This document shows positions 7,164 through 30,032 of a DNA stretch of 64,000 bases, in pieces. Made by a program: the position numbers and the translations under genes. The DNA is from Ensifer sesbaniae (lineage in GTDB: Bacteria > Pseudomonadota > Alphaproteobacteria > Rhizobiales > Rhizobiaceae). Under the pieces are notes generated by a model, which was not told where the DNA came from, made no database searches, and worked only from the letters and a program-made list of their open reading frames with translations. Within the stretch, counting starts at the first letter, position 1. The number at the start of each line of letters is the position of its first letter. The DNA lies in NCBI RefSeq assembly GCF_013283665.1, contig NZ_JABEKU010000002.1, forward strand, positions 1,486,863 through 1,550,862. Reading direction: 5' to 3'.

Positions 7164-7337
7164 CACGGCAGTCTTTGATAGGCATTCGTGGGGCTCCCTT
7201 AGAGGTTCGAACCACTATATAGACGAGAAGCAAGCACATTGCTCTTGGGAGCGGGCTATCTTTTGAGGCCACGGGTGCCTTGTCATTGCATATCTCATTC
7301 CGCAGTTTACGGACAACGTCTGAGCGATGGAGGAAAC

Positions 7338-8545: not shown

Positions 8546-8593
8546 TCATCCCCCTATTCAACTCTCAATTGTTTAGTTACCACCCCGAGGTGA

Positions 8594-8611
8594 CTCACAA
8601 ATAGTTGTGAG
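8594..8611. promoter_or_regulatory. Inverted repeat CTCACAA-N4-TTGTGAG in the divergent control region
   Basis: A perfect 7-bp inverted repeat with a 4-base spacer (18 bp overall) lies between the divergent hydrolase-like gene and the XRE gene. Its size and position fit a repressor operator. It differs in sequence from the 18-bp palindrome 38 bases to its right. Confidence 0.45.
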
Positions 8612-8648
8612 CTGCATTGCCACACGACCGAACTCAGCTTGCGGTTCC

Positions 8649-8666
8649 TATGGAAAATTTTCCATA
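8649..8666. promoter_or_regulatory. Perfect 18-bp palindrome TATGGAAAATTTTCCATA ahead of the ssp operon
   Basis: A perfect palindrome is centred about 42 bases upstream of the ATG of the XRE regulator that opens the ssp operon. HigA/XRE-type proteins normally bind such palindromes as dimers and repress their own operon, so autoregulation of the phosphorothioation genes by the first gene product is the simplest reading. The palindrome is inside a longer alternative TTG-initiated frame (8639), which argues that the true start is 8699. Confidence 0.6.
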
Positions 8667-8698
8667 ATCAAAATAAGCGAATCAACCTAGGGCCGAGC

Positions 8699-9004
8699 AT
8701 GAGGAATTCTGCCACAAATGCCGTTCTTCTCTCTACGCCAGATGTGGCACCGGTCGTCCGCACAGACCTTCGAGGCATCCTAGCCCGTGTTATGGCGGAT
8801 ACTGGCCTAAGCCAAACTCGAACCGCCAAGCTTTGCTCAACCGATCAACCGACACTTTCAAAGGTTTTGTCTGGGCGTAGCGATATCGCAAGCACTGACC
8901 AGCTTTTGCGCTGGCTGGTGCAGCTAGGTTGCGACGTTGAAATTAAGGTCCGAACCCCGTCCGATGCGGGTCCTGGCTCAATTAGGGCCACCTTCGATGA
9001 ATGA
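8699..9004 (+). CDS. XRE/HigA-like helix-turn-helix regulator of the ssp operon
   Basis: A small DNA-binding protein of 101 residues. The helix-turn-helix lies at about 33-62 ('MADTGLSQTRTAKLCSTDQPTLSKVLSGR'), followed by 'DQLLRWLVQLGCDVEIKVR', as in the HTH_37/HigA-type regulators that accompany many modification and toxin operons. The ATG at 8699 is preferred over the upstream TTG at 8639 because the extension would run through an 18-bp palindrome that looks like its operator. Its last 8 bases (ATGAATGA) overlap the start of sspA, so it is translationally coupled to the operon. Role inferred: autorepressor that keeps the modification and restriction genes balanced. Confidence 0.83.
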   Translation: MRNSATNAVLLSTPDVAPVVRTDLRGILARVMADTGLSQTRTAKLCSTDQPTLSKVLSGRSDIASTDQLLRWLVQLGCDVEIKVRTPSDAGPGSIRATFDE

Positions 9005-10190
9005 ACACGCTTTAGTGCAAAATTTGCCACTGCGACCCAAGGGTACCGGGCTTTACTTTGATCACCATGCAACTACCCCTGTTGATCCTCGGGTGGCTGA
9101 GGTCGCGGTTCGCATGATGGTCGAAGAGTTCGGGAATGCGAACGGCGTTGAAAACATCCATGGTGAGCGTGCAGCGTCCGCCGTCGCGCAGTCGAAAGAC
9201 AGGGTCGCGCAGCTGTTGCGAGCGGAGCCCGACGACGTTTCCTTCACCTCCGGTTCCACTGAGGCGATCCAGCTCGCGATTGCCCATTCAATCTCGAACC
9301 ATCGTGGGCCACTCCGAATTGCGATAAGCCGTGCGGAGCACAAGGCTGTCATCGATACTGCCTTGCGTGCCGAGCGCTTAGGATTGGCTCATACATCGTG
9401 GATCGAGATCGATGCCAAAGCTCAACTCGACTTGGAGAGCTATCGGCGCATCCTGAAGGAAGGTGTCGACCTCGTTTGCGTTATGTCCGCCAACAACGAG
9501 GTAGGGACTGTTTATCCCATCGACACAATCGTTCGCAAAGCGAACGTACACGGTGCAGATACGCTGGTTGACGCCACCCAAGCAATCGGGCGTCTGCCTT
9601 TGAACCTAGGAGAACTTGGCGCGTCCTATGTCATATTGAGCGGTCATAAGATCTACGGCCCCAAGGGAACAGGCGCGCTCATCTCTCCGATTTTTGATCA
9701 TTCGTCGGTATTTGGCCTCCAAGGAGCGCATCATCCCACGCCCAACGTTAGCGGTATCGCCGCGTTAGGTTTCGCATGCGAGCTCATGGAGCTTGAAGGA
9801 GAGGCAGAAACTGTCCGACTCTCGAAGCTGAGGGATTCGTTGCAAGATCGCTTATGTGAACTGGTTCCCGGCCTGATAGTGAATGGGGACGAAGTGAACC
9901 GCCTGCCTCATAACCTTCACGTTTCAGCACCTGGGGCGCCCAACGATGTGGTTTTGAGCCGTCTTCGGGGCAAGGTGTCAATTTCGACTGGCTCAGCTTG
10001 CAATACTGGAGCGCAGGAGCCATCGCACGTGCTCAGGGCGATGGGATTGCCCAATTCTCAAATCGAAAGCTGCCTGCGGATCGGATTGGGCCGCACAACG
10101 ACAGCTGACGACGTTGAGCGTGCTGCCATCGAAATAGCAAGCGCCATCAACGATGTTCGTAATTCATTATCCGGGGTCATCGATGTTTGA
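8997..10190 (+). CDS. sspA: SspA/DndA-like cysteine desulfurase
   Basis: A 397-residue PLP enzyme of the IscS/NifS class. The N-terminal 'YFDHHATTPVDPRV' (20-33), the aspartate/histidine pair of the PLP site, the PLP lysine K218 in 'SGHKIYGPKG', and the active-site cysteine C335 in 'STGSACNTGAQEPSHVL' are all intact. It would take sulfur from L-cysteine as a persulfide and pass it to the SspD sulfurtransfer machinery. The ATG at 8997 overlaps the regulator's stop as ATGAATGA, and its own stop overlaps sspB as ATGTTTGA. The placement directly before sspB-sspC-sspD is what separates it from a housekeeping IscS. Note that in many genomes the ssp locus borrows a chromosomal desulfurase, while here it is dedicated. 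Confidence 0.93.
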   Translation: MNEHALVQNLPLRPKGTGLYFDHHATTPVDPRVAEVAVRMMVEEFGNANGVENIHGERAASAVAQSKDRVAQLLRAEPDDVSFTSGSTEAIQLAIAHSISNHRGPLRIAISRAEHKAVIDTALRAERLGLAHTSWIEIDAKAQLDLESYRRILKEGVDLVCVMSANNEVGTVYPIDTIVRKANVHGADTLVDATQAIGRLPLNLGELGASYVILSGHKIYGPKGTGALISPIFDHSSVFGLQGAHHPTPNVSGIAALGFACELMELEGEAETVRLSKLRDSLQDRLCELVPGLIVNGDEVNRLPHNLHVSAPGAPNDVVLSRLRGKVSISTGSACNTGAQEPSHVLRAMGLPNSQIESCLRIGLGRTTTADDVERAAIEIASAINDVRNSLSGVIDV

Positions 10191-11133
10191 CATATCCGCC
10201 ACCGAGGGTCAGCCAGGCTATCGGTTTTCGGGGCACGAAACCTTTGCATGCCGCTACGCGTGGCTGCCGAAGGCGTACCGAGCAATCGTTGGAGACTCCA
10301 GCATCTTCTACAACGAAGATGCTGCGATGGTTGAGCTTGGCATCGGCAAGAACATGGTTCGTGCGCTGCGTTTCTGGGTTGACGCGATGGGTATCGCCCA
10401 TCCCACCACTGACCGCACGCACGAGATTTCGGGGCTCGGACACGTTATATTTGGAGAGAACGGCTTCGACCCGTATCTGGAAGACAGCAGAACACTATGG
10501 CTTCTACACTGGAACCTCTCCTCGTCTGCGACCCCAGCTATTTTCGCGTGGTACTACTTGCTGGGCGCGTGGCCGTACGCTGAGTTTTCTCGGTCTGAGG
10601 CGCTCACAGCATTCGCCCGGCAATCTCAGCGCCTAGGGCATTCCCATTCCGAAATTACCCTGAGCCAGCACCTGGACGTCTTCTTGCACACCTATCTCCC
10701 AGCACGCGGCTCGAGAGCGGGGATAGAGGACTCTCTGGATGGCCCACTTGTCGAGTTGCGCCTCTTGCAACAGACCGGTGAACGCCGTGGCGAAGGTGGA
10801 CGTTGGGAGGCTGTGTACGCCTTCCGGAAGGAGCCCAAGGCGGATATCACCAATGATCTCTTTGCTTACGCTGTTCTTGATTATTGGGAACGAACAGCGC
10901 CCGGTGAAAAGACAATCCCTGTTCGACACCTTCTCTCTGCGGCAGGTGCGCCCGGGCAGTCATTCAAACTCCCAGAAGAAGACGTTCGTGCTCGGCTTGA
11001 GAGCCTTTCTCTCGACGGCCGACACGGCTTCACCTATCGCCCATCAGCCATTCAGGGGCTGTTGACGCGCGAAGCCCCGATCAAGGCCGACGCGCGGACA
11101 ATTTATGCGAACGAGGCAAACATCGATGGCTGA
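10183..11133 (+). CDS. sspB: SspB, DUF4007 DNA-nicking component of single-strand phosphorothioation
   Basis: A 316-residue protein that opens with the DUF4007 signature 'FSGHETFACRYAWLPKAYRAI' (about 14-34) and continues with 'AAMVELGIGKNMVRALRFWVDAMGI' and 'DPYLEDSRTLWLLHWNL'. DUF4007 defines SspB, reported to nick DNA as the first step of sulfur insertion. The second half holds winged-helix-like and helical segments ending near 'RPSAIQGLLTREAP'. It overlaps sspA by 8 bases upstream and sspC by 8 bases (ATGGCTGA) downstream. The family assignment is firm from the N-terminal motif and the neighbours; nicking itself is known for the family, not shown here. Confidence 0.92.
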   Translation: MFDISATEGQPGYRFSGHETFACRYAWLPKAYRAIVGDSSIFYNEDAAMVELGIGKNMVRALRFWVDAMGIAHPTTDRTHEISGLGHVIFGENGFDPYLEDSRTLWLLHWNLSSSATPAIFAWYYLLGAWPYAEFSRSEALTAFARQSQRLGHSHSEITLSQHLDVFLHTYLPARGSRAGIEDSLDGPLVELRLLQQTGERRGEGGRWEAVYAFRKEPKADITNDLFAYAVLDYWERTAPGEKTIPVRHLLSAAGAPGQSFKLPEEDVRARLESLSLDGRHGFTYRPSAIQGLLTREAPIKADARTIYANEANIDG

Positions 11134-14100
11134 GCCGGGCGCTGCGACAATCACCGAAATTTTCTCGATCCCTGGTCGATTCCTTCGATCAGTCCAACTG
11201 GAAAAAGACTTCTTGGACGCATCTGCGCTCGAGAATTACATTGTCACGCCGCCCATGGCCGACGCGCTGCACCAGATCCTCTCGAGCGTCCGCCGGGGCT
11301 CGAAGCGTCGGGCTTGGCGTATCACAGGCGACTATGGCGTCGGAAAGTCGTCCATGGCGCTGGTGTTGGCTCGACTCTTGGCCGATCCGTCGGGGAAAGA
11401 CTCCAAACGCGTCGCCGAGGCAATAGGTTGGCGCGCGGATAACGATGATCGACGCTTCCTGCCGATCCTGGTTACAGGAAGCCGAGAAAGTATCCCAAGT
11501 GCCGTCGCTCGCGCGATTCGAGAGGCCGTCATTCACTCAGCCTGCGCCGACTTGCTTGATGCGCAGGTTGAAGCGGCGTTGGAAGCTTGTGAAACAACCG
11601 GCTGCGTCCGCTCGCTGGAACAGCTTATATCTCTGATGACCAAGCGAACCGCCAACCGAGACGTCGGATTGCTGCTGATCATCGATGAGTTGGGAAAACT
11701 CCTCGAGCATGCGGCATTGAATCCCGATCAGGAAGATGTCTTCGCGCTGCAGCGACTGGCCGAGATGGCGGCTCGTAGCAACGCCAGCCCCTTCTTGCTT
11801 GTCGGTATTCTGCATCAGGGCTTCCAGGCTTATGCCGAACGCCTCCCGCTCGCGCTTCGCCATGAGTGGGACAAAGTCGCTGGACGTTTTGAGGAGATCG
11901 TGTTCGATCAGCCGCTGGTTCATTCCGCGGCTCTGGTCGCCGGGGCGCTTGGTGTGGATGAAGGCGCCCTCCCGGCTCTCGTAAGAAATCAAGCGAACTC
12001 AGCTCTTGAGAAGGCGGGTCAGGTTGGCTGGCTCGGCGGACGCGGATTCGCTATTGACCCGGCCCGGTTCTATCCATTGCATCCTGCTCTTCTTCCGATG
12101 ATGGTCAGGTTCTTTTCGCATTTCGGCCAGAGTGAACGATCTTTGTTCGGCTTTCTCCTTTCGAGCGAGCCAATGGCGCTGCAGGCATTCTCAGCCTCGA
12201 CGGAGGTTGGTGAAGGCTGGTTCGATGCCGCGCGCTTCTACGACTACGTCCGCGCGTCATTTGGACATCGCGTGTCGGCGGGAAACTTTCAGAACCAGTG
12301 GCTTCGCATCGTGGCGACGATCGACAACTGTGTTGGAATCGACCCTGTTGAACTGAAGGTCCTGAAGACGGTAGGGCTGCTCAACTTGCTCGACTCCGAC
12401 GACTTGCTTCCGACAATCAAGACAATCGACGCTTGTTTGTCAGAATCCGGCGCTGTGGGCGCAGCTATCGACAATCTTGTTCGGGACGGCCTCTTGTTCG
12501 AGCGCGGTGGTTCAGGGGCGTTCCGCCTTTGGCCGAGCTCAAGTATCAATTTAACGGCATCCGTGAATGCCGCCAGGCGAGCGGTTGGCGAGGTCGAAGC
12601 CGTTGCGCCGGCTCTCTCTGTGATCTTGGATGGCGAGATGGTACTTGCGCGTCGCCATTATCTCGAAACCGGAACAATGCGGTATTTTGAGCTGAGATAC
12701 GCCACCACTGAAGACGTCGGCAAGGCAACCAGCAAGCCAACAAACGCAGATGGTCTCATCGTTGTGGCGCTTGCTGACCGAAAAGATCAGCAGCAGGTTG
12801 CACGGGATATCGCCGGCATCCCCGTTGTGGCTGAAAATCCTGCTATATTGGTCGCCGTGCCGCCCCCTGTCTGGCAACTCGCCTCCTACCTCCGCGACGT
12901 GCTGGTTTGGCGTTGGGTCGAGGCGAACACACCTGACTTATCAAGCGACGATTTCGCATCCGCTGAGGTCAAACGTCAGGTCGCGCGGTCGCGCCAGGCA
13001 CTGGTTGCGCAGTTCACCGAGTTGACCAGGATTGATGCCAAGAGGGGCATGGAATGGATCTATGGAGGTAAAAATTTTGACGCGACCGGCAACCTACCAA
13101 GGATCGTTTCTCAGCTCTGCACTGATCTCTATCCGCTGAGCCCGAAGGTCACGAACGAGCTTGTAAATCGCAATGTCCTCAGCAGTGCCGCGGCCTCTGC
13201 GCGGATGCGTTTGATCGAGGGCCTGTTCAAGGCACCGGAGCTGCCATTCCTTGGGATGGACGAGCGCAAGTCCCCGCCTGAAAAATCGATGTACCTTTCA
13301 GTACTTCAGAAGGGTGCACTGCATGTGGCGGATGGCGAGACCTTCACGTTGCGGATTCCCCAAGCCTCGAATGATCCGCTACATCTTGAACCAAGCTTGG
13401 CCGAAATCGTCAGAATGGTGAGGGCTGGCAAAGGTTGCAGGATTGCTATCACCGACATCTTTAGCCGACTATCAAATCGGCCATATGGTGTGCGTGATGG
13501 ATTGGCTCCAATTCTGTTGGCAGTAGTGGTCAAAGTGCATGGCCATGAGCTCGCTCTCTACGAAAACGGCACCTTCCTTCCGAGATTCGGCGCTATGGAA
13601 TTCCTGCGCCTGATCAAGGCGCCACAAACCTTCGATATTCAGCATTGCAGTGTCGAAGGTGTGCGCTCGCACGTATTTACCCGCCTCGCAAACCTCTTTG
13701 CATCGGGCATCGAGGGCCGCCAACCGGTTCTGCTAGACGTCGTGACTGAGCTCTGCCAGTTTGCGGCAAAACTCCCTGAATACACCCGAAAGTCAAAAGG
13801 CTTGTCGCCGACGACACTCGCCGTGCGCGACGTACTCCTATCTGCGCGCGAACCGGCGACGCTTTTGTTTGCGGACCTGCCCAACGCCTGCGGCCTTCCG
13901 ATCTTTCGCATTGATGAAGCCGATGAGAGTTCCGTTGAAGAGTTCATCAGCCGCTTTACAGATGCGGTTCAAGAACTTCAGAACACCTATGCAGAACTCA
14001 TAGCCCGCATCGTGAAAAGAACGTGCGAAGCGGCCGGTCAGGACCCAGAAAAATTCGATCGTGTCGCGTTGGCGTCTCGAGGTGCTCGCGTGTCACTCGC

Positions 14101-14575
14101 CGCCCGCGAACCGCGTCTCCGCGCGTTTGCGCTTCGACTACGGGATCCCGCCCTGCATGACGAAGCTTGGGCGGAGTCGCTGGCAAGTTTTGTGGTGGCG
14201 AAGCCTCCTGCCCGCTGGATGCCTGGGGACGAAGCCAGGTTCATCGAAGAGATTGCTGCATTGGCTGAGCTTTTTGCGAAGGTCGAGAGTACAGCATTCT
14301 CCACGTCGGAGGACCGCCCAAATACGGAAGCGATACGTCTGAATCTAACGCGCGGTGACGGAAGAGACCTCGTTCGTGTCCTTCATCCGGTCGATCTTGA
14401 CGCTGCGGACCAGAAAAAAATGGAAACCTTCACGGAATGGTTGCCACAGGGTGACGCGCAACGAATTCAAGTTCTTGCCAGCCTCCTCTGGCAAGAGCTA
14501 GCCCGCACCAGGGAAACTTTCACAGAGGAAAAAGGCTCTGGCGCAGCAGGTGTGAGGACGCAGAATGACAACTGA
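11126..14575 (+). CDS. sspC: SspC, large ATPase of the phosphorothioation complex
   Basis: A 1149-residue AAA-type P-loop protein. Walker A is at 68-76 ('GDYGVGKSS') and Walker B at 182-189 ('GLLLIIDELG'), with a downstream sensor-like region 'PFLLVGILHQGFQ'. The remaining 800 residues are helical and contain no other nucleotide-binding motif. In the SspBCD system SspC is the ATPase that works with the SspB nickase and SspD. Size, position between sspB and sspD, and the intact P-loop all agree. The start at 11126 was chosen because it gives the same 8-base ATG-N-N-TGA overlap as the other joints; an ATG at 11105 is the alternative. It overlaps sspD by 11 bases. Confidence 0.9.
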   Translation: MAEPGAATITEIFSIPGRFLRSVQLEKDFLDASALENYIVTPPMADALHQILSSVRRGSKRRAWRITGDYGVGKSSMALVLARLLADPSGKDSKRVAEAIGWRADNDDRRFLPILVTGSRESIPSAVARAIREAVIHSACADLLDAQVEAALEACETTGCVRSLEQLISLMTKRTANRDVGLLLIIDELGKLLEHAALNPDQEDVFALQRLAEMAARSNASPFLLVGILHQGFQAYAERLPLALRHEWDKVAGRFEEIVFDQPLVHSAALVAGALGVDEGALPALVRNQANSALEKAGQVGWLGGRGFAIDPARFYPLHPALLPMMVRFFSHFGQSERSLFGFLLSSEPMALQAFSASTEVGEGWFDAARFYDYVRASFGHRVSAGNFQNQWLRIVATIDNCVGIDPVELKVLKTVGLLNLLDSDDLLPTIKTIDACLSESGAVGAAIDNLVRDGLLFERGGSGAFRLWPSSSINLTASVNAARRAVGEVEAVAPALSVILDGEMVLARRHYLETGTMRYFELRYATTEDVGKATSKPTNADGLIVVALADRKDQQQVARDIAGIPVVAENPAILVAVPPPVWQLASYLRDVLVWRWVEANTPDLSSDDFASAEVKRQVARSRQALVAQFTELTRIDAKRGMEWIYGGKNFDATGNLPRIVSQLCTDLYPLSPKVTNELVNRNVLSSAAASARMRLIEGLFKAPELPFLGMDERKSPPEKSMYLSVLQKGALHVADGETFTLRIPQASNDPLHLEPSLAEIVRMVRAGKGCRIAITDIFSRLSNRPYGVRDGLAPILLAVVVKVHGHELALYENGTFLPRFGAMEFLRLIKAPQTFDIQHCSVEGVRSHVFTRLANLFASGIEGRQPVLLDVVTELCQFAAKLPEYTRKSKGLSPTTLAVRDVLLSAREPATLLFADLPNACGLPIFRIDEADESSVEEFISRFTDAVQELQNTYAELIARIVKRTCEAAGQDPEKFDRVALASRGARVSLAAREPRLRAFALRLRDPALHDEAWAESLASFVVAKPPARWMPGDEARFIEEIAALAELFAKVESTAFSTSEDRPNTEAIRLNLTRGDGRDLVRVLHPVDLDAADQKKMETFTEWLPQGDAQRIQVLASLLWQELARTRETFTEEKGSGAAGVRTQNDN

Positions 14576-15419
14576 CTATGCATCTCAGATTTTTTCATCG
14601 TTCGGGTCGGAGCAGCCGCGACATATCTTGAGCCTTTCCGGAGGCAAAGATAGCGCGGCGCTCGCTATATACCTTCGCGACCGCGTTCCGGAAATTGAAT
14701 ACATTTTCCACGATACGGACAAAGAGCTTCCGGAAACGTACGACTATATCGGGCGTCTGGAAGCAATTCTGGGCAAGCCGATCGTTCGCACCACCCCGAC
14801 AGACAGCTTTGATCACTGGCTGACCGTTTATCGCGGGATGCTCCCGTCGAACCACCGCAGGTGGTGCACCAAGATGCTAAAGCTTAAGCCGTTCGAAGCT
14901 TATGTCGGTGACGGGCCAGTCATCAACTACGTTGGCCTTCGTGCGGACGAAAACAGAACCGGTTACATCAGCACCAAACCTAACATCTTAGCCGTTTACC
15001 CATTTCAAGACGACGGCTTGGTACGGGCAGACATAATAGCGATCTTGGAAGACTCCGGGCTGGGTCTGCCACCATATATGGATTGGGGCCGGTCCCGGTC
15101 AGGATGCTATTTCTGCTTCTATCAGCAGAAGATCGAATGGGTGCGTCTGTTGGAAACCCATCCGACGTATTTCGACCTCGCAATGGAATATGAGGAGCGT
15201 GCAGTTCAGTTTGGTGAGCAGTTTTTCTGGTGCCAGAATGAACCCTTGCGTGACCTCGCAAAGCCGGAGCGCGTCGCAAAGATCAAATCAGATTGGGAAA
15301 AGGCTCAAGCGAAGAAGAGGGCCAATAGGAAATCGTTGTCACTCGTCGAAACCCTCGGTGGTTTGGAGGTTGAAGACGATAGCCATTTGCGCGACGGTTG
15401 CCTTGTATGCTCAATATAA
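14565..15419 (+). CDS. sspD: SspD/DndC-like ATP pyrophosphatase (PAPS-reductase family), sulfur insertion
   Basis: A 284-residue PP-loop enzyme. 'SLSGGKDSAAL' at 24-33 is the ATP-pyrophosphatase loop, followed by 'YIFHDTDKELPETYDYI' as in PAPS reductase and DndC. Cysteines C101 ('RRWCTKML'), C181 and C184 ('SGCYFCFYQ') resemble iron-sulfur ligands of DndC. A final pair C279/C282 ('DGCLVC') sits at the very C-terminus. The enzyme would adenylate the DNA phosphate and let sulfur from SspA replace a non-bridging oxygen. Its start overlaps sspC; a gap of 75 bases then separates it from the restriction genes, the only sizeable break in the operon, where an extra promoter could lie. Confidence 0.93.
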   Translation: MTTDYASQIFSSFGSEQPRHILSLSGGKDSAALAIYLRDRVPEIEYIFHDTDKELPETYDYIGRLEAILGKPIVRTTPTDSFDHWLTVYRGMLPSNHRRWCTKMLKLKPFEAYVGDGPVINYVGLRADENRTGYISTKPNILAVYPFQDDGLVRADIIAILEDSGLGLPPYMDWGRSRSGCYFCFYQQKIEWVRLLETHPTYFDLAMEYEERAVQFGEQFFWCQNEPLRDLAKPERVAKIKSDWEKAQAKKRANRKSLSLVETLGGLEVEDDSHLRDGCLVCSI

Positions 15420-15494
15420 AGATGTAGTTGTAGATTAGCGATCGAAAGGGGTCGGTCGGATATCGAACAGCGAAGGGGTTTCGAGGGCGAGAGG

Positions 15495-18852: not shown

Positions 18853-18859
18853 CGACAGA

Positions 18860-21800
18860 ATGGATATCCACGAACTGATTGGAAAAGTCGCGTGCTCGAT
18901 CCTCAAGGAGGAGTTGGGAGATGTAGGTGGAGAGGCCGCCGGCACTGCCAGATTCCTGTTAGACGGTCTGAGCATTCCGCAGACACTTGCCGTCACACGC
19001 GCTGTGCTGGCCGACGTTTTCTTAGGCGAGCGCGTCGACATCAAGCTACCCCGTACTCTTTTCGACGGGCACGCATTACCTGAGGATATCTTAACTGACC
19101 GCAATGCGACGTTCTATCGGAGCGCGGATTGTGAGAAAGCGGCCTTTCTCATTACAAACGCGAGTGCGGATGAGGGACAGGCCGAAGATATGTCCCTTCA
19201 TGAGGTCACGCCTATTGGAGCCGCTCAGCTGATCGAGCGGTTGCCCGCATGGGTATCTGCTGCAAGTGCGGGGCTGGCTCTAACTGATGATGCGAAGGCT
19301 TGGTGGGAGCGGTCTCTTGCGGGACTGAGCCAAGTGGGCTCTGTGGCGCTTGAGCGTTTCGCCCGCTACATTGTGGCGACCCGAGAGTCAGTGATTGACG
19401 AAGGTTACCCGATCATCGAAGCACTTGGTTACGCGCTCCCAGCGCTTCAGCTTCCCCGTGATCCGGCGGCCTTTGCCGGGATCAAGGACAAGTCCCGCCG
19501 TCATGCATCGGTTTGGAAACGCGAATACATCGGGTTGCGCCGTAAGCGCCACCCCTATCTGCTCAAGCAAAACCCGAACCAAATCGTCATCTCGGAGTCC
19601 GAACTGCGCGATGCCTTCGAAAAGGCACGAGATGTAATTCCTGAAATCGTTCACCCCGTGGTCGAGCTTTTCATCGAAAGCCGACCTGCTTGGAATTCCG
19701 GCTCTGAGGCCTTGGCGAACTGCCTTTGGGAGCACGTGAAGCCGCTCTTTGAAGGTTTGGCTAGAGAAAAGACCAACCTTGGCCAAGATACTCAACGCTT
19801 CTATTCGGAGGGGCCCGAGGACCTGCTATCAAAGGACGACGAGGAGCATCTGGAGCTTCTGGCACGAAGAAAGACGACTGCCAGCCCAGAACCTGAAGAT
19901 ATTGATTTCTACGAACGCCACCGTGACGAAATTAGAGAAGACCGCAAGCTTAAGTCTTCCTGGGACAAGTTCATCTATGGGCGGCCGCTGGAAACCGAGG
20001 ATTTCCTATCAGGATTAGCGATGGTGATGGACACGCTGAACGCCCGTGCAGCGGTTGGTGTGGAGCGAAGGTTAACCATCCGGTGTGACTCTCTGACTAA
20101 GCGGGATCTCCGCAGCTTGAATACGGAGGCCGGCCTTTTCTTCTCGCTCAGATATGCTGGTCTGCAGAAGCTGCTGGGCACGAACGTGGCAATCGAGTTT
20201 GGCTCGTTGATGGACTATCCCACCGTGTTACGGGGGTGGCAGGATGCCAAGGACAAGTCCGCGATCAATCGATCAACTGCTAAGGCAGCGCTGCAGTTAC
20301 GGTTCCAATTGGAACTCGAAACCACCGATTTCGAAGGCGGGACCTCCGTCGCCTCCGCGCAGCTCATTTGGAAGTATCGACCCGATGTTATCTCGTCGCA
20401 ATTGACAGACGATTGGGACCGCTTATGCGACAACGCCTTTGTGGCGCTTCGATGTGGCCGAGAACCCGGAATGGCCGGCCGTCGGCCCGGTGCGATTGAC
20501 CTTTCAGACGTAAGGACACTGGTCCCTGCTTATGACCGGGATCGGGGATCGCTCGTCCCAACCTATAGACGCGACCGTGACTTGCGTCTGATCTGGCAAG
20601 CCAATCTCAAGGCTGCGATCGAGCAGGATCTTATCGACGCGGCCGTTTCGACGACGCTCTCTGCAAGTTTCGAGTCATTCTGCGAGCGATATCAGACCGC
20701 GATCAGGTCATTTCGGATCGAGGGCGCATCTAATCCCGCGTGTCGCGATCAGGCTGCGAGCTATGCAGAGCTACTTGATCTTGTCCGGATCCTAGCCCCT
20801 GGCGATCGCAACAAGGACATGCTGTTGCGCCCCCTCCTGGAGCTGGGTCAGGCCCCAGTTGGCGACGGAGCCGCTGCCGCGATTGTTGCGCCGTGGCACC
20901 CTCTACGACTCGCGGCTATCTGGCGGAAAGCTCATCTCGTTCGAGAGGTGGTGCGCAAAATTGTCGACCGGCCCGCGGGCCTCGATGGCGATACGAAGCT
21001 ATTCTTCAGAGATCTTGCTGAAGATATGCGGCACGTCTTCTATCCGGAGGTGGTTGTCTCATGGAGCGGCCGCAAACCGGAGCTCCTCTCGCTGGCGGAT
21101 TATCAAGGCGACTATTCGCTTCACGAACGACCTGTGCTCGATGGAGCGGAAGGAGGAGAAACAAACGACGACGCAAAGGCCGGGACGAACTGCCTCCTTG
21201 ATCTGACGCAGCGCTACTTAAACCTGCATCCTCATGAACGGGCGAATATGTCGCTTGTTCTCTATAATTGCGATTCAGCTCGTCTTCCTCAGCAGTTGGT
21301 CGACGGGCTAGGCGAACTGAACGACGACGAGGACATCAGGTGTCAGGTGATGTTGCGTCACACGGACGGGACTCGGCTTCGCGATATCTATCGATCAATT
21401 CTGACAAGTACCAGCGGCTCCGCTGAGGTACTGGCGGCTTCCGAAATCACGCAAGATTTCATGGCCAGACTACGCATAAGTGTCATCGCGGATCAGGCTC
21501 CGCCGCCAGATCCGCGTGACGGGCGGCCGTACGATATCGTTTTCAGTCAGGACGTTATTTCTCGACATGCGTCGGTCGAATGGTATCGGGAATCTGCTGA
21601 TCCGGCTGATCTCGCGACGCTGTTGCCGGCGCGATGGTCGCGCCGACGCCCCGGCGCGATGGATGACTTGAAATCGAGCGTTTACTTGTGCTCACCCGTG
21701 CAAAGTCACGAAGGCTGGGCATTCCTGTCTGCAACCACAGCGTTCCTGAAAAATGACGAGGATGTACAAGACGGAAAACGACTGCTTCCTGTCCGACAGC

Positions 21801-24145
21801 TCGATTTCAGAGACGACCGCACAGCCCGCATTTTCGAAGAAACGCATGATTTGGGCGCATGGGTCGTCAACTTCGACGAATTGCTTGATCGTCGCCAATT
21901 GCAGAACCAGAGCGTGCGCGTCATTCGGTATAAGCAGTCCGCTACACAGGGCCGGAACGTCGTGATTTCGTCTCGTGCCCCACTCACCCTCCTTCGCGCG
22001 ATGGTACGCCGGCGGCTCGAGGAACTACAGCTCGATCTTTCGCCTGAGGACATCGATGCACTCGCGGACCGCTTTATCGGTGACGCGAATGATATTTCGG
22101 GCGACATTGTGTTGCGAGCTGCAAAACGCGGTGAAGCAGCCGGTGAACTCATTGGCGTCGTCTTGAGCCGGTTCCTCGCCCGGCAGTCTCTCGGGACCGA
22201 CCGCCTTGTCGGGTGGTATTTCCTTGACGACTACGCAAGTTGGCTTGGGGCCCGCGAGGAGACACAGGCCGACATTCTTGCATTGTCTCCCTCGATCGAT
22301 ACCAGTGGGCAATTGACTTTGCGGATCATCGTGACAGAAGCGAAGTATGTCGATGCTGTCTCCTTCCCATCGAAGCGCAAGGAATCGGAAAAGCAGCTCC
22401 GCGACACAATGCGCCGCATCATTGATGCCATGTCTGAGCCCGATCGCCTCGATCGCGAGTCATGGCTGTCTCGTTTGGGTGATCTTCTGCTAGACGGCAT
22501 TCAAATCCCGGCCGCCAGCAATGTCCCTCTAGTGGACTGGCGCCGCCGGATAAGAGATGGCCTCGCCCAGATCGAGGTGGTCGGTCTAAGTCATGTCTTC
22601 GTTCCGACCGCTCTAGATGGTTCCACGGTTACAGATTTCAGCGAAGTAAGCGGCGCGCCCGCTAGTCGACAGATGATCTTCGGTCGATCAGAGCTCAAGG
22701 CTCTGATCATGGCCTACATAGCGAATGAAACCGTTGATACGCTTCTAACCTCGATCGACCCTATTTACGGCAAGGTGCCCGCGCCGCATACGCCCGGCCA
22801 GACCATCAATCCAAGATCGGATGCGCCGGGCACCCTAAGAAGAGCAACGTCCGAACGTGTCGCTGCAAGCGATGACCGCCAGCCCGCCCCTCCACCACCC
22901 GCTGAAAAGCCCGGTGAAGAGAATCCGCTTGAACCAGAAGTGACCAATATTATCTCTCCGGTGAGCAGTGTGGCAGAAATCGTCGACCGGCACCTTGACA
23001 CCGGCCCGAAACAAACGGCGGCCGATGAAGAGTGGTTGGCAAACACCGCTATGATGGCTCGTAGCGCCCTTCAACAGCTTGGTCTACAAGCGAAACTGAT
23101 TGACCAGAAGCTGACACCGAATTCTGCGATCCTGCGTTTCAGCGGAAGCGCAAATTTGACCGTCGAACAGGTTCTCAAGCGTCGGTCCGAGCTTCTGACG
23201 ACACATCGCCTCGACGTCATCTCCGTGAGGCCAGAGCCAGGTGCTATCGCAATCTATGTCGCACGCACCCAACGGCAGGTGGTGGATATCCAAAGTCTTT
23301 GGAGCCGATGGAAGCCGACAGTTTCATCGACTGGGAACCAGAACCTAGTGATCGGAGTGCGGGAGGATGACAACGAACTTTTCGTGCTTTCCCCTAGCCA
23401 ACGGCACGCGCCCCATACGTTGATCGCCGGCAGCACAGGCTCTGGAAAATCAGTGCTAATGCAATCGATCATATTGGGGATTGCAGCAACAAATGATCCA
23501 CTTCACGCGAAGATCGTGCTGATCGATCCGAAACAGGGCGTCGACTATTTCGCCTTTGAAGCGCTCCCACATCTGGAGGGCGGGATTATCGACCAGCAAG
23601 AGACTGCCGTCGACCAGTTGGAACGTATGGTTTTGGAGATGGACCGGCGCTACCGGCTCTTCAAAGAAGCGCGGGTCGCTAACATCACTGCCTATAACTC
23701 CAAAGCTGCGCCCGCTGAGGTGCTGCCCACCTACTGGGTCATTCATGACGAGTTTGCGGAATGGATGCTGACGGATGACTACCGCGCAGCCGTCGCCTCG
23801 ACTGTTGGGCGGCTCGGGGTTAAAGCCCGTGCGGCAGGCATCCATCTAATCTTCGCGGCTCAGCGACCTGAGGCGAATGTGATGCCTATGCAACTGCGTT
23901 CTCAGCTTGGAAACCGATTGATACTGCGCGTCGACTCCGAGGGCACCTCCGAGATTGCACTCGGAGAGCGTGGAGCCGAAAGACTGTTGGGTAAGGGCCA
24001 TATGATTGTCCGAGCGGAAGGTGAGCAAGGGTTGATTTACGCGCAAGTTCCGTTCGCATCTGAGAAGTTTGTCTCTGAGGTCGTCGAAGCCATCGAGCTA
24101 TCTCAGGGACAAGACATCGGAAGAGTTCGGAATGACGGACTTTAA
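18860..24145 (+). CDS. sspH: SspH (DptH-like) very large protein with C-terminal FtsK/HerA ATPase
   Basis: A 1761-residue protein. The C-terminal 300 residues form an FtsK/SpoIIIE-type DNA translocase domain: Walker A at about 1524-1531 ('GSTGSGKS'), 'IVLIDPKQGVDYFAFE', Walker B near 1628-1632 ('WVIHDEFAEWM'), and 'AAGIHLIFAAQRPEANVMP' with 'NRLILRVDSEGTSEIALGERGAERLLGKGHM'. A proline-rich linker lies before it at about 1310-1370. The first 1300 residues are of unknown fold. Size and C-terminal ATPase match DptH/SspH. It probably translocates on DNA for the restriction complex. The upstream frame from 18785 is rejected because the ATG at 18860 follows sspG directly. It ends 90 bases before the kinase-like gene. 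Confidence 0.83.
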   Translation: MDIHELIGKVACSILKEELGDVGGEAAGTARFLLDGLSIPQTLAVTRAVLADVFLGERVDIKLPRTLFDGHALPEDILTDRNATFYRSADCEKAAFLITNASADEGQAEDMSLHEVTPIGAAQLIERLPAWVSAASAGLALTDDAKAWWERSLAGLSQVGSVALERFARYIVATRESVIDEGYPIIEALGYALPALQLPRDPAAFAGIKDKSRRHASVWKREYIGLRRKRHPYLLKQNPNQIVISESELRDAFEKARDVIPEIVHPVVELFIESRPAWNSGSEALANCLWEHVKPLFEGLAREKTNLGQDTQRFYSEGPEDLLSKDDEEHLELLARRKTTASPEPEDIDFYERHRDEIREDRKLKSSWDKFIYGRPLETEDFLSGLAMVMDTLNARAAVGVERRLTIRCDSLTKRDLRSLNTEAGLFFSLRYAGLQKLLGTNVAIEFGSLMDYPTVLRGWQDAKDKSAINRSTAKAALQLRFQLELETTDFEGGTSVASAQLIWKYRPDVISSQLTDDWDRLCDNAFVALRCGREPGMAGRRPGAIDLSDVRTLVPAYDRDRGSLVPTYRRDRDLRLIWQANLKAAIEQDLIDAAVSTTLSASFESFCERYQTAIRSFRIEGASNPACRDQAASYAELLDLVRILAPGDRNKDMLLRPLLELGQAPVGDGAAAAIVAPWHPLRLAAIWRKAHLVREVVRKIVDRPAGLDGDTKLFFRDLAEDMRHVFYPEVVVSWSGRKPELLSLADYQGDYSLHERPVLDGAEGGETNDDAKAGTNCLLDLTQRYLNLHPHERANMSLVLYNCDSARLPQQLVDGLGELNDDEDIRCQVMLRHTDGTRLRDIYRSILTSTSGSAEVLAASEITQDFMARLRISVIADQAPPPDPRDGRPYDIVFSQDVISRHASVEWYRESADPADLATLLPARWSRRRPGAMDDLKSSVYLCSPVQSHEGWAFLSATTAFLKNDEDVQDGKRLLPVRQLDFRDDRTARIFEETHDLGAWVVNFDELLDRRQLQNQSVRVIRYKQSATQGRNVVISSRAPLTLLRAMVRRRLEELQLDLSPEDIDALADRFIGDANDISGDIVLRAAKRGEAAGELIGVVLSRFLARQSLGTDRLVGWYFLDDYASWLGAREETQADILALSPSIDTSGQLTLRIIVTEAKYVDAVSFPSKRKESEKQLRDTMRRIIDAMSEPDRLDRESWLSRLGDLLLDGIQIPAASNVPLVDWRRRIRDGLAQIEVVGLSHVFVPTALDGSTVTDFSEVSGAPASRQMIFGRSELKALIMAYIANETVDTLLTSIDPIYGKVPAPHTPGQTINPRSDAPGTLRRATSERVAASDDRQPAPPPPAEKPGEENPLEPEVTNIISPVSSVAEIVDRHLDTGPKQTAADEEWLANTAMMARSALQQLGLQAKLIDQKLTPNSAILRFSGSANLTVEQVLKRRSELLTTHRLDVISVRPEPGAIAIYVARTQRQVVDIQSLWSRWKPTVSSTGNQNLVIGVREDDNELFVLSPSQRHAPHTLIAGSTGSGKSVLMQSIILGIAATNDPLHAKIVLIDPKQGVDYFAFEALPHLEGGIIDQQETAVDQLERMVLEMDRRYRLFKEARVANITAYNSKAAPAEVLPTYWVIHDEFAEWMLTDDYRAAVASTVGRLGVKARAAGIHLIFAAQRPEANVMPMQLRSQLGNRLILRVDSEGTSEIALGERGAERLLGKGHMIVRAEGEQGLIYAQVPFASEKFVSEVVEAIELSQGQDIGRVRNDGL

Positions 24146-24235
24146 CCACGGGTTATGCTCCATAGACTACGATCCAGAAGCTTCCGCAGCGGCGGAAGGG
24201 CGACTTGTTACGCAAAATTGAGAGAAGTTGGTTCG

Positions 24236-26587
24236 GTGAGTTTTACATTTGAGGCGAGAACGCTCCTAGAGTTAGGCAAGGAGCTGATAAGTTCCGACGA
24301 GGTTGCCATCTATGAGCTGATCAAGAACTCAGTAGATGCCCTGTCTCCACGCGTCGAGATCCTCATCAACGTTCAGCTGACCTACTCTGATTTCAAGGAA
24401 GCGATCGCCCGCATCACAGAAGAAGGAAAATCGATCGAGGAGACTCTTGCTTTCGTGCAAAGTTGTGTCCTCGATATTGAGAACGATGGCGCGAAGGCGA
24501 TGATTGAATCGCTCCGTGAAGCGCGTACAGCGGATGAATTCTGCCACTCCCTTCGTTCCAGCTATCAAGAACTGAACACTATTGAAGTTCGAGATACCGG
24601 AAGTGGCATGTCCTTGCATGATCTGAAGAATATATTTCTTCGAGTAGGAACTCGGTCGCGAAGAACTGAGAATTTGGCAGGGGCGCGAAATCTGGGAGAT
24701 AAAGGTATTGGCCGTCTATCTGCAATGAGGCTTGGTGATCGGCTCCGCGTCAAAACATCAAAATCTGGCGAAGTCCATTGGAATTTTCTTGATATTGACT
24801 GGTCGTTATTTTCTCACGATAGCAAAAAAACGATCGAAGAGATCAACGTTGACCCAATTGTCTGGGAACGTAAAGAAGCTCCATCCGAGAGCGGTACGAC
24901 GATCTTGATCTCAGCGCTGCAGAGTGATTGGACACTAGTTCGCTTCACTGACATTCTGCAGGGCCGCATCGCTCGCATGGTCGATCCGTTCGAGCCTGGC
25001 GCAGCAAACAAACTATTAACCGCCCGTTTCAATGGCCAACGGATTAGCATTCCGTCTATTCCCCGTGAGCTACTCGATTCCGCGCACGCCTACTGCCACG
25101 TAGAATTCGATATGATCGATGGTGAGCCGGTCGTAACCGGCTTTGTCGACTACAGATTTAGGCACAGGAGCATTCGCATTGACGAGAGAGGAGCTGGCGT
25201 TTACTCGCTCGCTCAGGAAGCCGTAAAGCGGCGCGCTAAGCGGGGACATGCAGCCTTTCGATTAGTCCCTGTTCGCCGGTCGGCCTTCGAAGCACTCGGC
25301 CGATTCACATGCGATATCTATTGGTTCAATCGCCGGGTAGTTCAGGCGGTGGCCGGTCTCACCGAGAAAATGCAAGATACACGGAGAGAAATATCGCATT
25401 GGAGCGGCGGGCCTATGCTTTACCGCTACGGCTTTCGCATTCTGCCGTACGGGGACCCGTCGAATGATTGGCTGGATTTGGATGAAAATGCCTTCGGATC
25501 TTCAGGCTTCAAGCTGAATCGGCAGCAAGTGATTGGCCGCGTCCTGCTTGAAACTTCCCACACTGCTTTGAGTGAGCAGACCAACCGGGAGGGTCTAATC
25601 CAATCCGACGCAGCAGATGCATTGCGAAAAATCCTTCTGTGGGTCGTGCATTCTGAGATGCGTGGGCTCATCAACGAAGCCGATGAAATCGAACTGATCG
25701 AACGGCGGGCTGCGGACGAAGATACGAAACTCGTGTCAGCCAGTCGGGAACGCGTCAACAATGCTCTTGAGCGAATTCGGAGAATTGTCGGAGAAAATGG
25801 AAAGGCTGAGATTGCAGATCTGAGCAAGAGTGTTTCGCAGCTCACGACGCAGTCGGCCACGCTAGTTGAGCGGATTGAGAAGGTGATCGCTGAGGCTGAA
25901 GAGGAACGTGAGAAATTTGTCTACCTAGCCGGTATCGGATTGATGACTGAGTTCATCTTCCATGAACTTGAGCGAGCGGTCGGCCATACGATGGATCTGC
26001 TGTCGGCCGGAAGTTTGCGGCAATCAACAATCGACTCGCTCCGAGAACAGCTTAAGACCCTTCATAAAAGAATTGCAGCGTTTGACGAGCTAACCGGCGA
26101 AAAGCGGCAGTCAAAAAGCAAATTCAATCTTGCGGATCTGGTTGACGACGTGTTGTCCAATCACGCGAAGGAATTTGACCGACACGGCATCACGGTACGG
26201 TTCAGCCGTCCAGAACGTCCATTCATGGTAAATGCGGTCAGAGGAATGGTCATTCAAATCCTCGAGAATATGATTGTAAACTCAGCCTATTGGCTGAAAC
26301 AGCAAAAAAAGTACCAAGACCGCTTCGCTCCCCAAATAACCGTCGTTCTCGATGAGAACGAGAAAAGTCTAACGATAGAGGACAATGGTCCCGGTGTGAC
26401 CGAAGATCGACGGGAGCGAATATTTCAGCCCTTCGTTACTTCCAAACCCACAGGACAGGGTCGTGGACTGGGCTTGTACATTTCGCGCGAGCTCGCAGAA
26501 TATCACAAATGGAAGTTGTATATGGATTCGACAGTTGGACGCATCCGAAGTGGGCGCGTGAACATGTTTGTCCTGGACATGGGCTAG
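24236..26587 (+). CDS. Dual-GHKL histidine-kinase-like sensor protein
   Basis: Two separate GHKL ATP-binding domains occur in one 783-residue chain. The N-terminal one resembles Hsp90/MutL/MORC: N31 in 'IYELIKNSVDA', 'DTGSGMS' near 120 and 'LGDKGIGRLS' near 153. The C-terminal one resembles histidine kinases: N-box 'ILENMIVNSAYWL' near 678, 'EDNGPGV' near 716 and 'GRGLGLYISREL' near 745. A coiled-coil (about 480-560) leads to a dimerisation-like helix 'LMTEFIFHELERAVGH' whose histidine near 576 could be the phospho-acceptor. There is no transmembrane segment, so it is cytosolic. The GTG at 24236 is preferred since the conserved region starts there; ATG at 24155 is possible. It belongs to the ssp transcript and is followed after 9 bases by a receiver-domain gene. 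Function inferred: infection or DNA-state sensor. Confidence 0.82.
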   Translation: MSFTFEARTLLELGKELISSDEVAIYELIKNSVDALSPRVEILINVQLTYSDFKEAIARITEEGKSIEETLAFVQSCVLDIENDGAKAMIESLREARTADEFCHSLRSSYQELNTIEVRDTGSGMSLHDLKNIFLRVGTRSRRTENLAGARNLGDKGIGRLSAMRLGDRLRVKTSKSGEVHWNFLDIDWSLFSHDSKKTIEEINVDPIVWERKEAPSESGTTILISALQSDWTLVRFTDILQGRIARMVDPFEPGAANKLLTARFNGQRISIPSIPRELLDSAHAYCHVEFDMIDGEPVVTGFVDYRFRHRSIRIDERGAGVYSLAQEAVKRRAKRGHAAFRLVPVRRSAFEALGRFTCDIYWFNRRVVQAVAGLTEKMQDTRREISHWSGGPMLYRYGFRILPYGDPSNDWLDLDENAFGSSGFKLNRQQVIGRVLLETSHTALSEQTNREGLIQSDAADALRKILLWVVHSEMRGLINEADEIELIERRAADEDTKLVSASRERVNNALERIRRIVGENGKAEIADLSKSVSQLTTQSATLVERIEKVIAEAEEEREKFVYLAGIGLMTEFIFHELERAVGHTMDLLSAGSLRQSTIDSLREQLKTLHKRIAAFDELTGEKRQSKSKFNLADLVDDVLSNHAKEFDRHGITVRFSRPERPFMVNAVRGMVIQILENMIVNSAYWLKQQKKYQDRFAPQITVVLDENEKSLTIEDNGPGVTEDRRERIFQPFVTSKPTGQGRGLGLYISRELAEYHKWKLYMDSTVGRIRSGRVNMFVLDMG

Positions 26588-26596
26588 GGAAATATC

Positions 26597-28582
26597 ATGG
26601 GACATGAAAAGCGAATTGTAGAAGCGTTCTCTGAGAATCAGATTCAGAGGGTCCTACTGATCGACGATGTCTACGACATGCCGGAGTTCGATGAGATTTC
26701 GGGCGAGCTGCTGGAATTTATGGGCAGTATCGACGGCCAGGAGGCCTGTAAGGATGCGGGCGTCAATGACGCAGATCTTGCCGACACCACTGACGCGATT
26801 GACCGAAACGATGTGGGGTCGGAAGCGGTGGCCAGCACAATGCGTGCGCTTTACGCAAAGTTTGTCGAAACTAGAGATCCGCGCTTTGATCCTGGCAAGC
26901 GCTTCGAGACACGCAAAGGTCTAACTCTGGCGTTGTTGGATCCACTTATCGCGTTGCTTCGCAAGTGCGGGGAGAATGTTGCGATCGAATTATCCGGCCT
27001 CGAAGACGGCGAAGAACGCTTCGTTCAGTTTAAACCGCAGATCGTCTTCCTTGACTACTATTTAAGTCCCGACGCGACTGGTGAGGCCCTTAAGCCGGCA
27101 GTCAAAACAAAGGCGCGGAAGGCGTCGATTCAGTTGCTCAATCGACTCTTGAAAACAAAGCCGGAAGAAGACCCTGCGGTCGTTCTGATGTCTTCCGAGG
27201 AAGTTAAGGATAAAGCTCAGAGCTTTCGGCAGGACGTTGAATCATTGGGCGAGAACGTTATCGCGCTTCGCTTCCGGTTCTTACGGAAAGGCTGGGTAGG
27301 TTTCAACGGGAACGATCTGACGATCAACAACGAGGCAGCAGACACGCTTCTCGACACTAGCCAAGGCTACGTATTCGGCCAGGTGGTCCACCGAGCTCTA
27401 AAGGAATGGAGATCCGGAGCAGAGAGTGCTTTGAGGGAAGTGCTCAAGCAGATAGGCAGTTTGGAACCGAAGGATTTTGCATACCTGTTCCGGTTCAGGC
27501 TAGCGACCGAGGGCGAGAAAATGGGCGAATATCTTGAGTGGTTATTCGGCGAAAATCTTCGCGGGGTTGTAGCTGAGACTGTGAACTGGTCGAGCGAGTC
27601 TTTCACCAGGATTGATGACTCGAAGCTGAGCAAAGGGATCGAGGGGGCCTTTGACGGCCCCTCCGTTCCAATCGCTCGGTTGTTCCATCGAGTGCGAGTT
27701 GATGAACGGCCTCAAGTCGATGGTGCCCGGCGTCGGCTTGGTGACATGTTCATCAAGCCGAGCGAGAAAAAAGTAATGGTCGTAATAACGCCGGATTGCG
27801 ATTTGGTTCCCCGCGGCACTGGGCCAAAGGTGAAGCGCCTGCTTACCATGGACGGCGAGCTTCGTCCTTTTGACCAAGAGAACGCGTCCGCGGATCAGTT
27901 CATTTTTTACAAGAAGAAACCGTACAGCCTAAAATGGAATCCGAAGGCGCTTCACACGTTTCCAGTATCCGGGTCGGGGTCTCTAGGCGTCCTTAAGGGA
28001 GTTGAATATCTTGGAACACTTCGTCCGCTTTACGCTCAGGAGGTACAGCGTTTAGCTTTGACTGACCTTGCTCGCCTAGGGCTCAGTGTCGCGCCGACTA
28101 TGGGCGTTGACGCTGAAATCACGGTGCACCTTCGTGTCAAGAATGGCAATGGAACTGCGACACAGATCCTAGATATGCCTGGGAGCTCAATCGCCACAGT
28201 CTTGCCTGAGCGCGGAGACTTGCAAAAAGGACATCGTGTACTTCTCCGCCGCTCTTTCATACATACTCTTGTTGAGAAGCTAAGAGAAGTTGATCCCGCT
28301 ACTCTTACACCTGAAGATGCGGCCAAGCTTTCGGATTTCTTGCGAGAAAAAAATGAAGATCAAATGATCAATGGGTTCCTCATCAAAGGCGCGGCGACCA
28401 AGGAAAAAGGTCCCCTCTCGACCACCATCAAAATCGCCTCAAAACCCGATCGGGATAAAGATGCAGCTTGGCTTCAATTCACGCTTAAGCTGTCTGAAGA
28501 GGCAATGGAAGAACTGCTGAGCGTAGACCCATCAATGATGATCTCAGAGGAACTCAATGAGCCGGCGGCCGAACCCGAATAG
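26597..28582 (+). CDS. Response-regulator-like protein with interrupted receiver domain
   Basis: The 661-residue protein starts like a receiver: 'QRVLLIDDVYD' with acidic pair D23-D24. The phospho-acceptor strand 'PQIVFLDYYLSPDATG' with D153 comes 130 residues later, where about 40 is usual. The conserved Ser ('VVLMSSEE', 199-200) and Lys (K231 in 'RFLRKGW') follow at normal distances. So the receiver fold appears complete but carries a helical insertion of about 90 residues. Residues 300-640 form an output region unlike any DNA-binding domain I know, including 'VMVVITPDCDLVPRG'. The lack of a helix-turn-helix suggests a protein-level, not transcriptional, output. It is paired with the dual-GHKL kinase and is the last gene of the ssp operon. 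Confidence 0.78.
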   Translation: MGHEKRIVEAFSENQIQRVLLIDDVYDMPEFDEISGELLEFMGSIDGQEACKDAGVNDADLADTTDAIDRNDVGSEAVASTMRALYAKFVETRDPRFDPGKRFETRKGLTLALLDPLIALLRKCGENVAIELSGLEDGEERFVQFKPQIVFLDYYLSPDATGEALKPAVKTKARKASIQLLNRLLKTKPEEDPAVVLMSSEEVKDKAQSFRQDVESLGENVIALRFRFLRKGWVGFNGNDLTINNEAADTLLDTSQGYVFGQVVHRALKEWRSGAESALREVLKQIGSLEPKDFAYLFRFRLATEGEKMGEYLEWLFGENLRGVVAETVNWSSESFTRIDDSKLSKGIEGAFDGPSVPIARLFHRVRVDERPQVDGARRRLGDMFIKPSEKKVMVVITPDCDLVPRGTGPKVKRLLTMDGELRPFDQENASADQFIFYKKKPYSLKWNPKALHTFPVSGSGSLGVLKGVEYLGTLRPLYAQEVQRLALTDLARLGLSVAPTMGVDAEITVHLRVKNGNGTATQILDMPGSSIATVLPERGDLQKGHRVLLRRSFIHTLVEKLREVDPATLTPEDAAKLSDFLREKNEDQMINGFLIKGAATKEKGPLSTTIKIASKPDRDKDAAWLQFTLKLSEEAMEELLSVDPSMMISEELNEPAAEPE

Positions 28583-29677: not shown

Positions 29678-30032
29678 TGTTGCCCCGGCCATCAACTTCA
29701 CAACGTGTGTATCTCACACACTTTGCGCCGTCAAGCGGTTGTGTGTTAATAACGCATGACACGTGTATTCTAGCCATTTTTGCGGAGTGACCACAAAGGG
29801 TAGCTATTGAAATCCTCCAATTGTTGACATTTCTGGACGTTGGTCCTCAACAGTGGTCCACTCGAAACCAGTCGGCCGGGGCCAAAAGCACTTGTTTCCG
29901 GGCTCCTCTGGTTGGAATCTGGTGGCTCTCTTCTGGAGACGGCGCTCCTTGGCTACTATGGCTTCAATGGCTGACAGAGGACAGGCTGCGGTACAATTCC
30001 TTGACCCGCTGCGTTGATAATTAGGGTGGCCC
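29678..30032. promoter_or_regulatory. Divergent control region between XRE-HNH and AbiJ-like genes
   Basis: No gene is seen in these 355 bases. Just upstream of the XRE-HNH start lies the inverted repeat GTGTGT-N5-ACACAC (29705-29721). A second looser GTGTGT...GACAC pair lies near 29740-29763. Together they are good candidate operators for the XRE domain of the HNH fusion. The remainder up to the AbiJ-like gene shows no further structure I can name. Confidence 0.4.

Follow-up and report, generated by a model that had tools for sequence, protein, structure and literature searches.

Here we describe a cluster of phosphorothioation defence (ssp) genes in Ensifer sesbaniae that ends in a pair of genes encoding a histidine kinase and a receiver-like protein, and we show that this pair is a real, little-described component of one subtype of Ssp systems. 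The DNA analysed, referred to as the window, is a stretch of 64,000 nucleotides (assembly GCF_013283665.1, contig NZ_JABEKU010000002.1, positions 1,486,863-1,550,862; all coordinates below are window positions) from a genome that appears, on sequence matches, to be close to Sinorhizobium. Ten open frames separated by small gaps occupy 8639-28582 of the + strand, the first start being the ATG at 8699 (Table 1). SspABCD-SspFGH is the phosphorothioation defence of Vibrio anguillarum FF-93 (PMC8092258), and all seven of its ssp genes are recognized in the cluster, on one strand, by PADLOC models. A one-strand operon of ten genes (regulator, sspABCD, sspFGH, kinase and receiver) had been proposed in a first-pass annotation of the sequence, and the open reading frames and the PADLOC and Pfam assignments bear it out.

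Table 1. Genes of the E. sesbaniae operon (window positions) and the evidence for each assignment.
Feature	Position	Strand	Evidence
HTH_37/XRE-type regulator, heads operon	8699..9004	+	Pfam HTH_37 1.3e-10; ATG at 8699
sspA, cysteine desulfurase	8997..10190	+	PADLOC SspA 7e-96, DndA 2.5e-94; probable start ATG 8997
sspB, DUF4007	10153..11133	+	PADLOC SspB 6.8e-114; Pfam DUF4007 2.2e-66
sspC, BrxC-like ATPase	11105..14575	+	PADLOC SspC E = 0, 1523.7 bits
sspD, PAPS-reductase-like	14565..15419	+	PADLOC SspD 1.7e-115
sspF, restriction module	15495..17339	+	PADLOC SspF 1.9e-208
sspG, restriction module	17332..18852	+	PADLOC SspG 6.8e-196
sspH, restriction module, FtsK/SpoIIIE-type C-terminus	18860..24145	+	PADLOC SspH E = 0; FtsK_SpoIIIE 2.1e-34
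Soluble histidine kinase (P0009)	24236..26587	+	Pfam HATPase_c_3 + HATPase_c; H-box His603; start inferred from relatives
Response-regulator-like protein (P0010)	26597..28582	+	Predicted receiver domain, helical linker, MazF/CcdB-like barrel and C-terminal tail

The SspA and DndA models nearly tie for the sspA product, the probable start of sspH is M26 of its frame, and none of the ten proteins matches SspE in PADLOC. The pair had been credited with the base composition of sspH, which is incorrect: its G+C contents are 51.1 and 52.5%, against 56.0-56.8% in sspFGH.

The kinase (P0009; residues are numbered on the frame opening at 24155, the true start probably being the GTG at 24236, as judged from relatives) carries two GHKL ATPase domains in Pfam, an N-terminal, paraMORC-like HATPase_c_3 and a C-terminal HATPase_c (1.4e-23). 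It has the H box and the N, G1, F and G2 boxes of a two-component kinase: H603, E604, N705 and N709 are invariant in all 88 rows of an alignment of relatives, the G1, F and G2 residues are near invariant, and H603 and E604 are also kept in all six further kinases from outside that alignment. Alignment A3 omits eight loci with truncated or split genes or no receiver frame (L035, L043, L048, L057, L064, L065, L083, L088) and L087, in which the receiver frame (12459-15935 of that locus) has 1159 residues instead of the usual ~660 and may be a C-terminal fusion. With a highest 19-residue hydropathy of 1.34, the kinase is probably cytoplasmic and soluble.

No match to the receiver (P0010) was found in Pfam, PADLOC or NCBIfam. 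Its predicted layout comprises a receiver domain with a helical insert (~8-263), a helical linker, a MazF/CcdB-like barrel (~374-496) and a C-terminal tail. The first of these has the fold and the DD, D, S/T and K site of receivers, with Asp153 as the candidate phosphoacceptor. The phosphorelay residues of both proteins are nearly invariant. The barrel has a conserved set of its own (G382, C401-D402, W447, R493 and G495). When its model was searched alone with Foldseek, MazF/CcdB types were among the matches listed; BFVD yielded two phage proteins of the PemK/MazF type, as well as an endoribonuclease (probability 0.94-0.99), amid unrelated matches of similar E. The whole receiver gave nothing with E < 0.001, the best match being a response regulator (E 0.013).

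The barrel is thus predicted, on models, to have a MazF/CcdB-like fold, the likeness to MazF, PemK and CcdB toxins residing in that fold, whereas no sequence relationship to them was found. A PDB sequence search with P0010 returned nothing at E up to 1; in Pfam at E up to 10, no family was common to at least two of P0010 and eight relatives, and the MazF/PemK profile PF02452 matched none of them. As the E. sesbaniae genome itself has no PemK match, PemK proteins were taken from genomes of the same family, and hhalign of the receiver C-domain against 15 PemK proteins was negative.

To survey the distribution of the pair, GTDB was scanned with the kinase alignment; 198 relatives resulted, and all 80-locus counts refer to the best 80 of these 198. 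The sample is biased in that the pairs behind the scan query, one from the window and seven from plasmids, all lie close to ssp genes. Neighbouring genes were called with profiles built from the window genes, and SspF was left out of the counts because its model cross-hits SspH. The receiver gene accompanies the kinase in 77 of the 80 loci (the exceptions being L043, L057 and L088). At least one ssp gene is present in 76 of the 80 stretches, sspB or a fragment of it in 66, and complete sspBCD in 64. The four loci without any ssp gene are L031, L033 and L035, on contigs of less than 6 kb, and L060, the stretch of which covers 10 kb before the kinase and ~2.3 kb past the receiver gene. Fourteen genomes lack sspB in the stretch; DUF4007 is encoded elsewhere in 11 of them and was not found in L031, L033 and L060, so that sspB or part of it occurs in 77 of the 80 kinase-bearing genomes (the search took 15 genomes, with 12 positive, the fifteenth being L088, which has an sspB fragment). 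By record title, many being metagenome bins, the hosts include Pseudomonadota, Bacteroidota, Planctomycetes, Verrucomicrobia, Acidobacteria and Chloroflexi.

On plasmids, 17 records carry a kinase relative at E 1e-30. Of 16 loci examined, 15 have sspBCD within ~15 kb, and both hits in the remaining record, H78, lie at the same coordinates as in an examined one; hence 16 of the 17 are near sspBCD. The exception, L106, has the most distant kinase (25% identity) and adjoins cytosine methyltransferase and restriction genes. The first-pass view that a two-component-like pair belongs with Ssp systems is therefore upheld; a pair lying mostly away from ssp genes, which it had named as contrary evidence, is the opposite of what the 80 loci present.

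With moderate confidence, we read the pair as a cognate cytoplasmic two-component phosphorelay dedicated to one SspABCD subtype, for which it would provide signalling and perhaps an effector, with or without SspFGH. The subtype is a minority one. In three overlapping genome samples (phylum, 398; class, 385; order, 397), 31 genomes besides that of the window encode DUF4007 (11 of 398 in the phylum sample, window genome included); none of the 31 has the kinase at E 1e-25, with only 32 candidates scored in many genomes, and none has the receiver protein at E 1e-5, with all candidates scored. Plasmid records with an SspB relative number 96 and those with the pair 16. In these samples, then, the pair is missing from the majority of Ssp-like loci.

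This scarcity bears on the alternative that the pair is a controller of modification, which would sense DNA damage, replication or sulphur supply and tune the activity or assembly of SspBCD with no effector of its own. Such a role would suit a pair that accompanies sspBCD whatever the restriction arm, that is flanked by sspC on one side and sspD on the other in 10 of the 80 loci (Planctomycetes, Bacteroidota, Chloroflexi and Thermodesulfovibrio by record title), and that has a relative, at L106, next to a cytosine methyltransferase (cf. PMC8011034). We consider it unlikely, however, given the absence of the pair from the other sampled DUF4007 genomes and an output fold that, being toxin-like, is not an obvious tool for tuning an enzyme. 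In 39 of the 80 loci, the ssp gene in front of the kinase is a co-directional sspD, mostly adjacent (2.5-4.5 kb away in L067, L077, L081 and L082); outside these two arrangements, the position and direction of the pair vary.

The first-pass annotation had regarded the pair as an addition to sspABCD-sspFGH that may control when the restriction complex acts, in which case the phosphorelay would license or restrain SspFGH and confine its attack to infection or to times of full host DNA modification. SspFGH harms Escherichia coli when modification is absent (PMC8092258), so control would pay, and in the window the pair immediately follows sspH, with no promoter- or terminator-like site on the + strand of the gap in a consensus scan. 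That position stands for the window; elsewhere the pair is not specific to sspH. Only 23 of the 80 stretches have sspG or sspH, and of the 15 ssp-linked plasmid loci, seven have sspFGH in the stretch (L010, L012, L013, L014, L103, L104 and L105) and eight do not. For 24 genomes in which the pair is accompanied by sspBCD, the stretch extends 3 kb or more to either side and contains neither sspG nor sspH; a genome-wide tblastn search (E 1e-5; many are drafts) found no SspG relative in 23 of them. We therefore reject the pair as a part of SspFGH, and a general role in its control is not supported by these counts and seems quite improbable, the more so as the SspFGH proteins of Sinorhizobium terangae, 95-98% identical to those of the window, go with a pair that differs, as detailed below.

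A common effector overlooked beside loci without sspG or sspH was also considered, and the neighbours scanned gave no sign of one. Around 27 such loci, three of them plasmid-borne, there are 145 frames that lie within 4 kb and encode 200 residues or more; 101 of these were scanned and 44 left out; no family occurred in more than four of the 101 proteins, and SspE models matched at most one of them (whole genomes were not searched for SspE). Together with the genome-wide result for sspG, this leaves the pair as the only recurrent sspABCD partner seen in those genomes. The pair is a recurrent partner of sspABCD, with or without SspFGH.

Comparison of related loci reveals that the pair has been exchanged between Ssp backbones. 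Window positions 7959-24064 have 91.5% DNA identity to the S. terangae plasmid pCB3126_2, the match stopping within the last 90 bases of sspH, and the pair that the plasmid has past sspH is a different one, oppositely oriented, with a kinase 41% and a receiver 26% identical to those of the window. The reverse case is L018, the pair of which is 68% and 54% identical to the window pair, with SspA, SspB and SspC at 29-33% and SspD at 61%. A better conservation of SspD than of SspA, SspB and SspC is also seen in comparisons with L008 and L011. For the window and 65 loci, 66 systems in all, the correlation of identities is 0.96 for kinase with receiver, 0.97 for SspB with SspC, and only 0.61 for kinase with SspC (Mantel 0.001 in all five pairings tested, host relatedness not being removed). 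Strict co-evolution of the pair with sspBCD is thus rejected; the kinase-receiver correlation and the swaps indicate a cognate unit that is kept with sspBCD and occasionally replaced, much as might be expected of a sensor that phages evolve to evade.

Movement as a cassette, with the looser kinase-SspC correlation and swaps in both directions, would also suit an independent anti-phage system that merely resides in the same islands as ssp genes. We regard this as very unlikely, since the pair stays with sspBCD across distant phyla and within the operon, and sspB or part of it is found in 77 of 80 kinase-bearing genomes, compared with the 11 DUF4007 genomes of the 398 in the phylum sample. The least probable reading, a transcriptional two-component system governing the ssp operon, follows a published guess that an Acinetobacter kinase controls SspE expression (PMC7464106), and is highly improbable for a receiver in which Pfam recognizes no DNA-binding domain, the C-domain model of which resembles MazF/CcdB types among the matches listed, and which belongs to an operon already headed by a helix-turn-helix gene.

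That Acinetobacter work shows that a histidine kinase in this setting had been noticed before, contrary to the first-pass annotation: histidine kinase genes were reported in 2020 beside SspE in 211 strains (PMC7464106), and PMC12421847 likewise mentions one that adjoins or lies close to ssp genes in the same genus. The Acinetobacter baumannii kinase and receiver belong to the family of the window pair (3.3e-184 and 5.4e-21); the receiver keeps the DD-D-T-K residues, though neither W447 nor G495 in its C-domain. At two A. baumannii loci (L101 and L109), the stretch shows the pair and sspBCD and neither sspA nor sspFGH; endonuclease and transposase genes (in L101 also an excisionase gene) lie nearby, looking like a Tn7-type element. 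The main text of PMC8092258 uses neither "kinase" nor "response regulator", and terms for a kinase/receiver pair are likewise missing from the Dnd reappraisal PMC10853773; as far as the available text of the 2026 BREX survey goes (PMC12839542), a histidine kinase is named only in a Schlafen fusion. By the terms searched, HATPase and REC domains appear in the DefensePredictor paper only in one figure legend, and no description of the receiver output domain or of the cross-phylum spread was found in open-licence PMC papers.

Two described systems invite comparison. Detocs consists of three genes, and its PNP effector degrades ATP. Like this defensive two-component system (PMC11249213), the window pair has two-component logic in a phage defence setting and a possible effector domain as output; unlike Detocs, the pair comprises two genes, its kinase is paraMORC-like, its output is MazF/CcdB-like in predicted fold, and it keeps company with sspBCD, and Pfam finds no PNP domain in either protein. 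The HEF_HK (PF19191)/Response_reg_2 (PF19192) two-component-like pairs described in 2021 beside type II restriction-modification genes (PMC8011034) share the adjacent genes, the HATPase_c_3, H box and HATPase_c architecture and the receiver residues. At the profile level they differ: HEF_HK does not match P0009 at E up to 10 and matches three of eight kinases (best 1.3e-4), and Response_reg_2 matches none of nine window-type receivers at the same limit. Their partner is cytosine methylation, that of the window pair phosphorothioation; methylation restriction-modification neighbours, the setting to which L106 conforms, are absent from the immediate surroundings of the window pair, which consist of sspABCD and sspFGH. 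Four Response_reg_2 receivers (L097-L100) have in common a C-terminal domain with the CD motif, and this domain is homologous to that of the window receiver (hhalign 98%, E 1.2e-12). A MazF-like output may thus extend to the pairs linked to restriction-modification; neither MazF nor PemK is named in the main text of PMC8011034.

In the flanks, a + strand frame at 7239-7943 with a weak HEPN match (PF05168 4.6e-4, below cut-off) converges on a poly-gamma-glutamate hydrolase gene (7940-8545, -; PF05908 3.2e-46), and the ssp genes of S. terangae (L010) and of Agrobacterium sp. T29 (L013) likewise have a hydrolase of that name beside them. On the other side of the operon, the frame at 28763-29701 (-) converges on the receiver gene and encodes HTH_3 at its N-terminus and an HNH endonuclease domain at its C-terminus; beyond it, 30033-30926 (+) has a weak AbiJ_NTD4 match slightly under cut-off. 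Megablast matches to the nearest megaplasmid, that of Sinorhizobium chiapasense, start only at 35.3 kb (93% identity over parts of 35.3-48 kb), which suggests an island at about 8-35 kb of the window. Within the operon, the SspG C-terminus resembles MAD7 (NCBIfam 4.1e-13, far below cut-off) and the SspH C-terminus MAD8 (PADLOC 4.8e-23), possibly linking SspFGH to the methylation-associated MADS system.

As a dedicated phosphorelay of one SspABCD subtype, the pair might operate as follows; phosphotransfer, the signal and the action of the output as effector or as switch are what we infer. In the kinase, the state of the DNA or the SspBCD machinery would be sensed by the N-terminal GHKL domain, which is MORC/Hsp90-like, and ATP-driven closure would place the C-terminal catalytic domain on His603, which would become phosphorylated. 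Phosphate would then pass to Asp153 of the receiver, and the phosphorylated receiver would free or re-orient the barrel of predicted MazF/CcdB fold, which would either attack nucleic acid or host machinery to halt infection, or switch SspBCD or SspFGH. At loci without SspFGH, the pair is the only recurrent partner seen that could answer infection. A bolder version, which we offer tentatively, is that SspABCD and the pair form a self-sufficient third class of phosphorothioation defence besides SspE and SspFGH, in which a MORC-like kinase reads DNA or SspBCD and the phosphorelay unleashes a toxin-like MazF/CcdB-fold output leading to abortive infection, the pair being a plug-in cassette swapped between backbones and the sister pair doing likewise for methylation-based restriction-modification.

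In a survey based on single BLAST queries, sspFGH was found with 196 and sspE with 199 of 2,678 sspBCD clusters, and both with 36 (PMC8092258). Some of the clusters without a recognized restriction partner, which are the majority in that survey, may have the pair as their partner. The pair would tie phosphorothioation to phosphorelay signalling and endow a soluble MORC-like ATPase with an output that can be read, and it would suggest the same toxin-like output domain in related pairs beside methylation restriction-modification systems.

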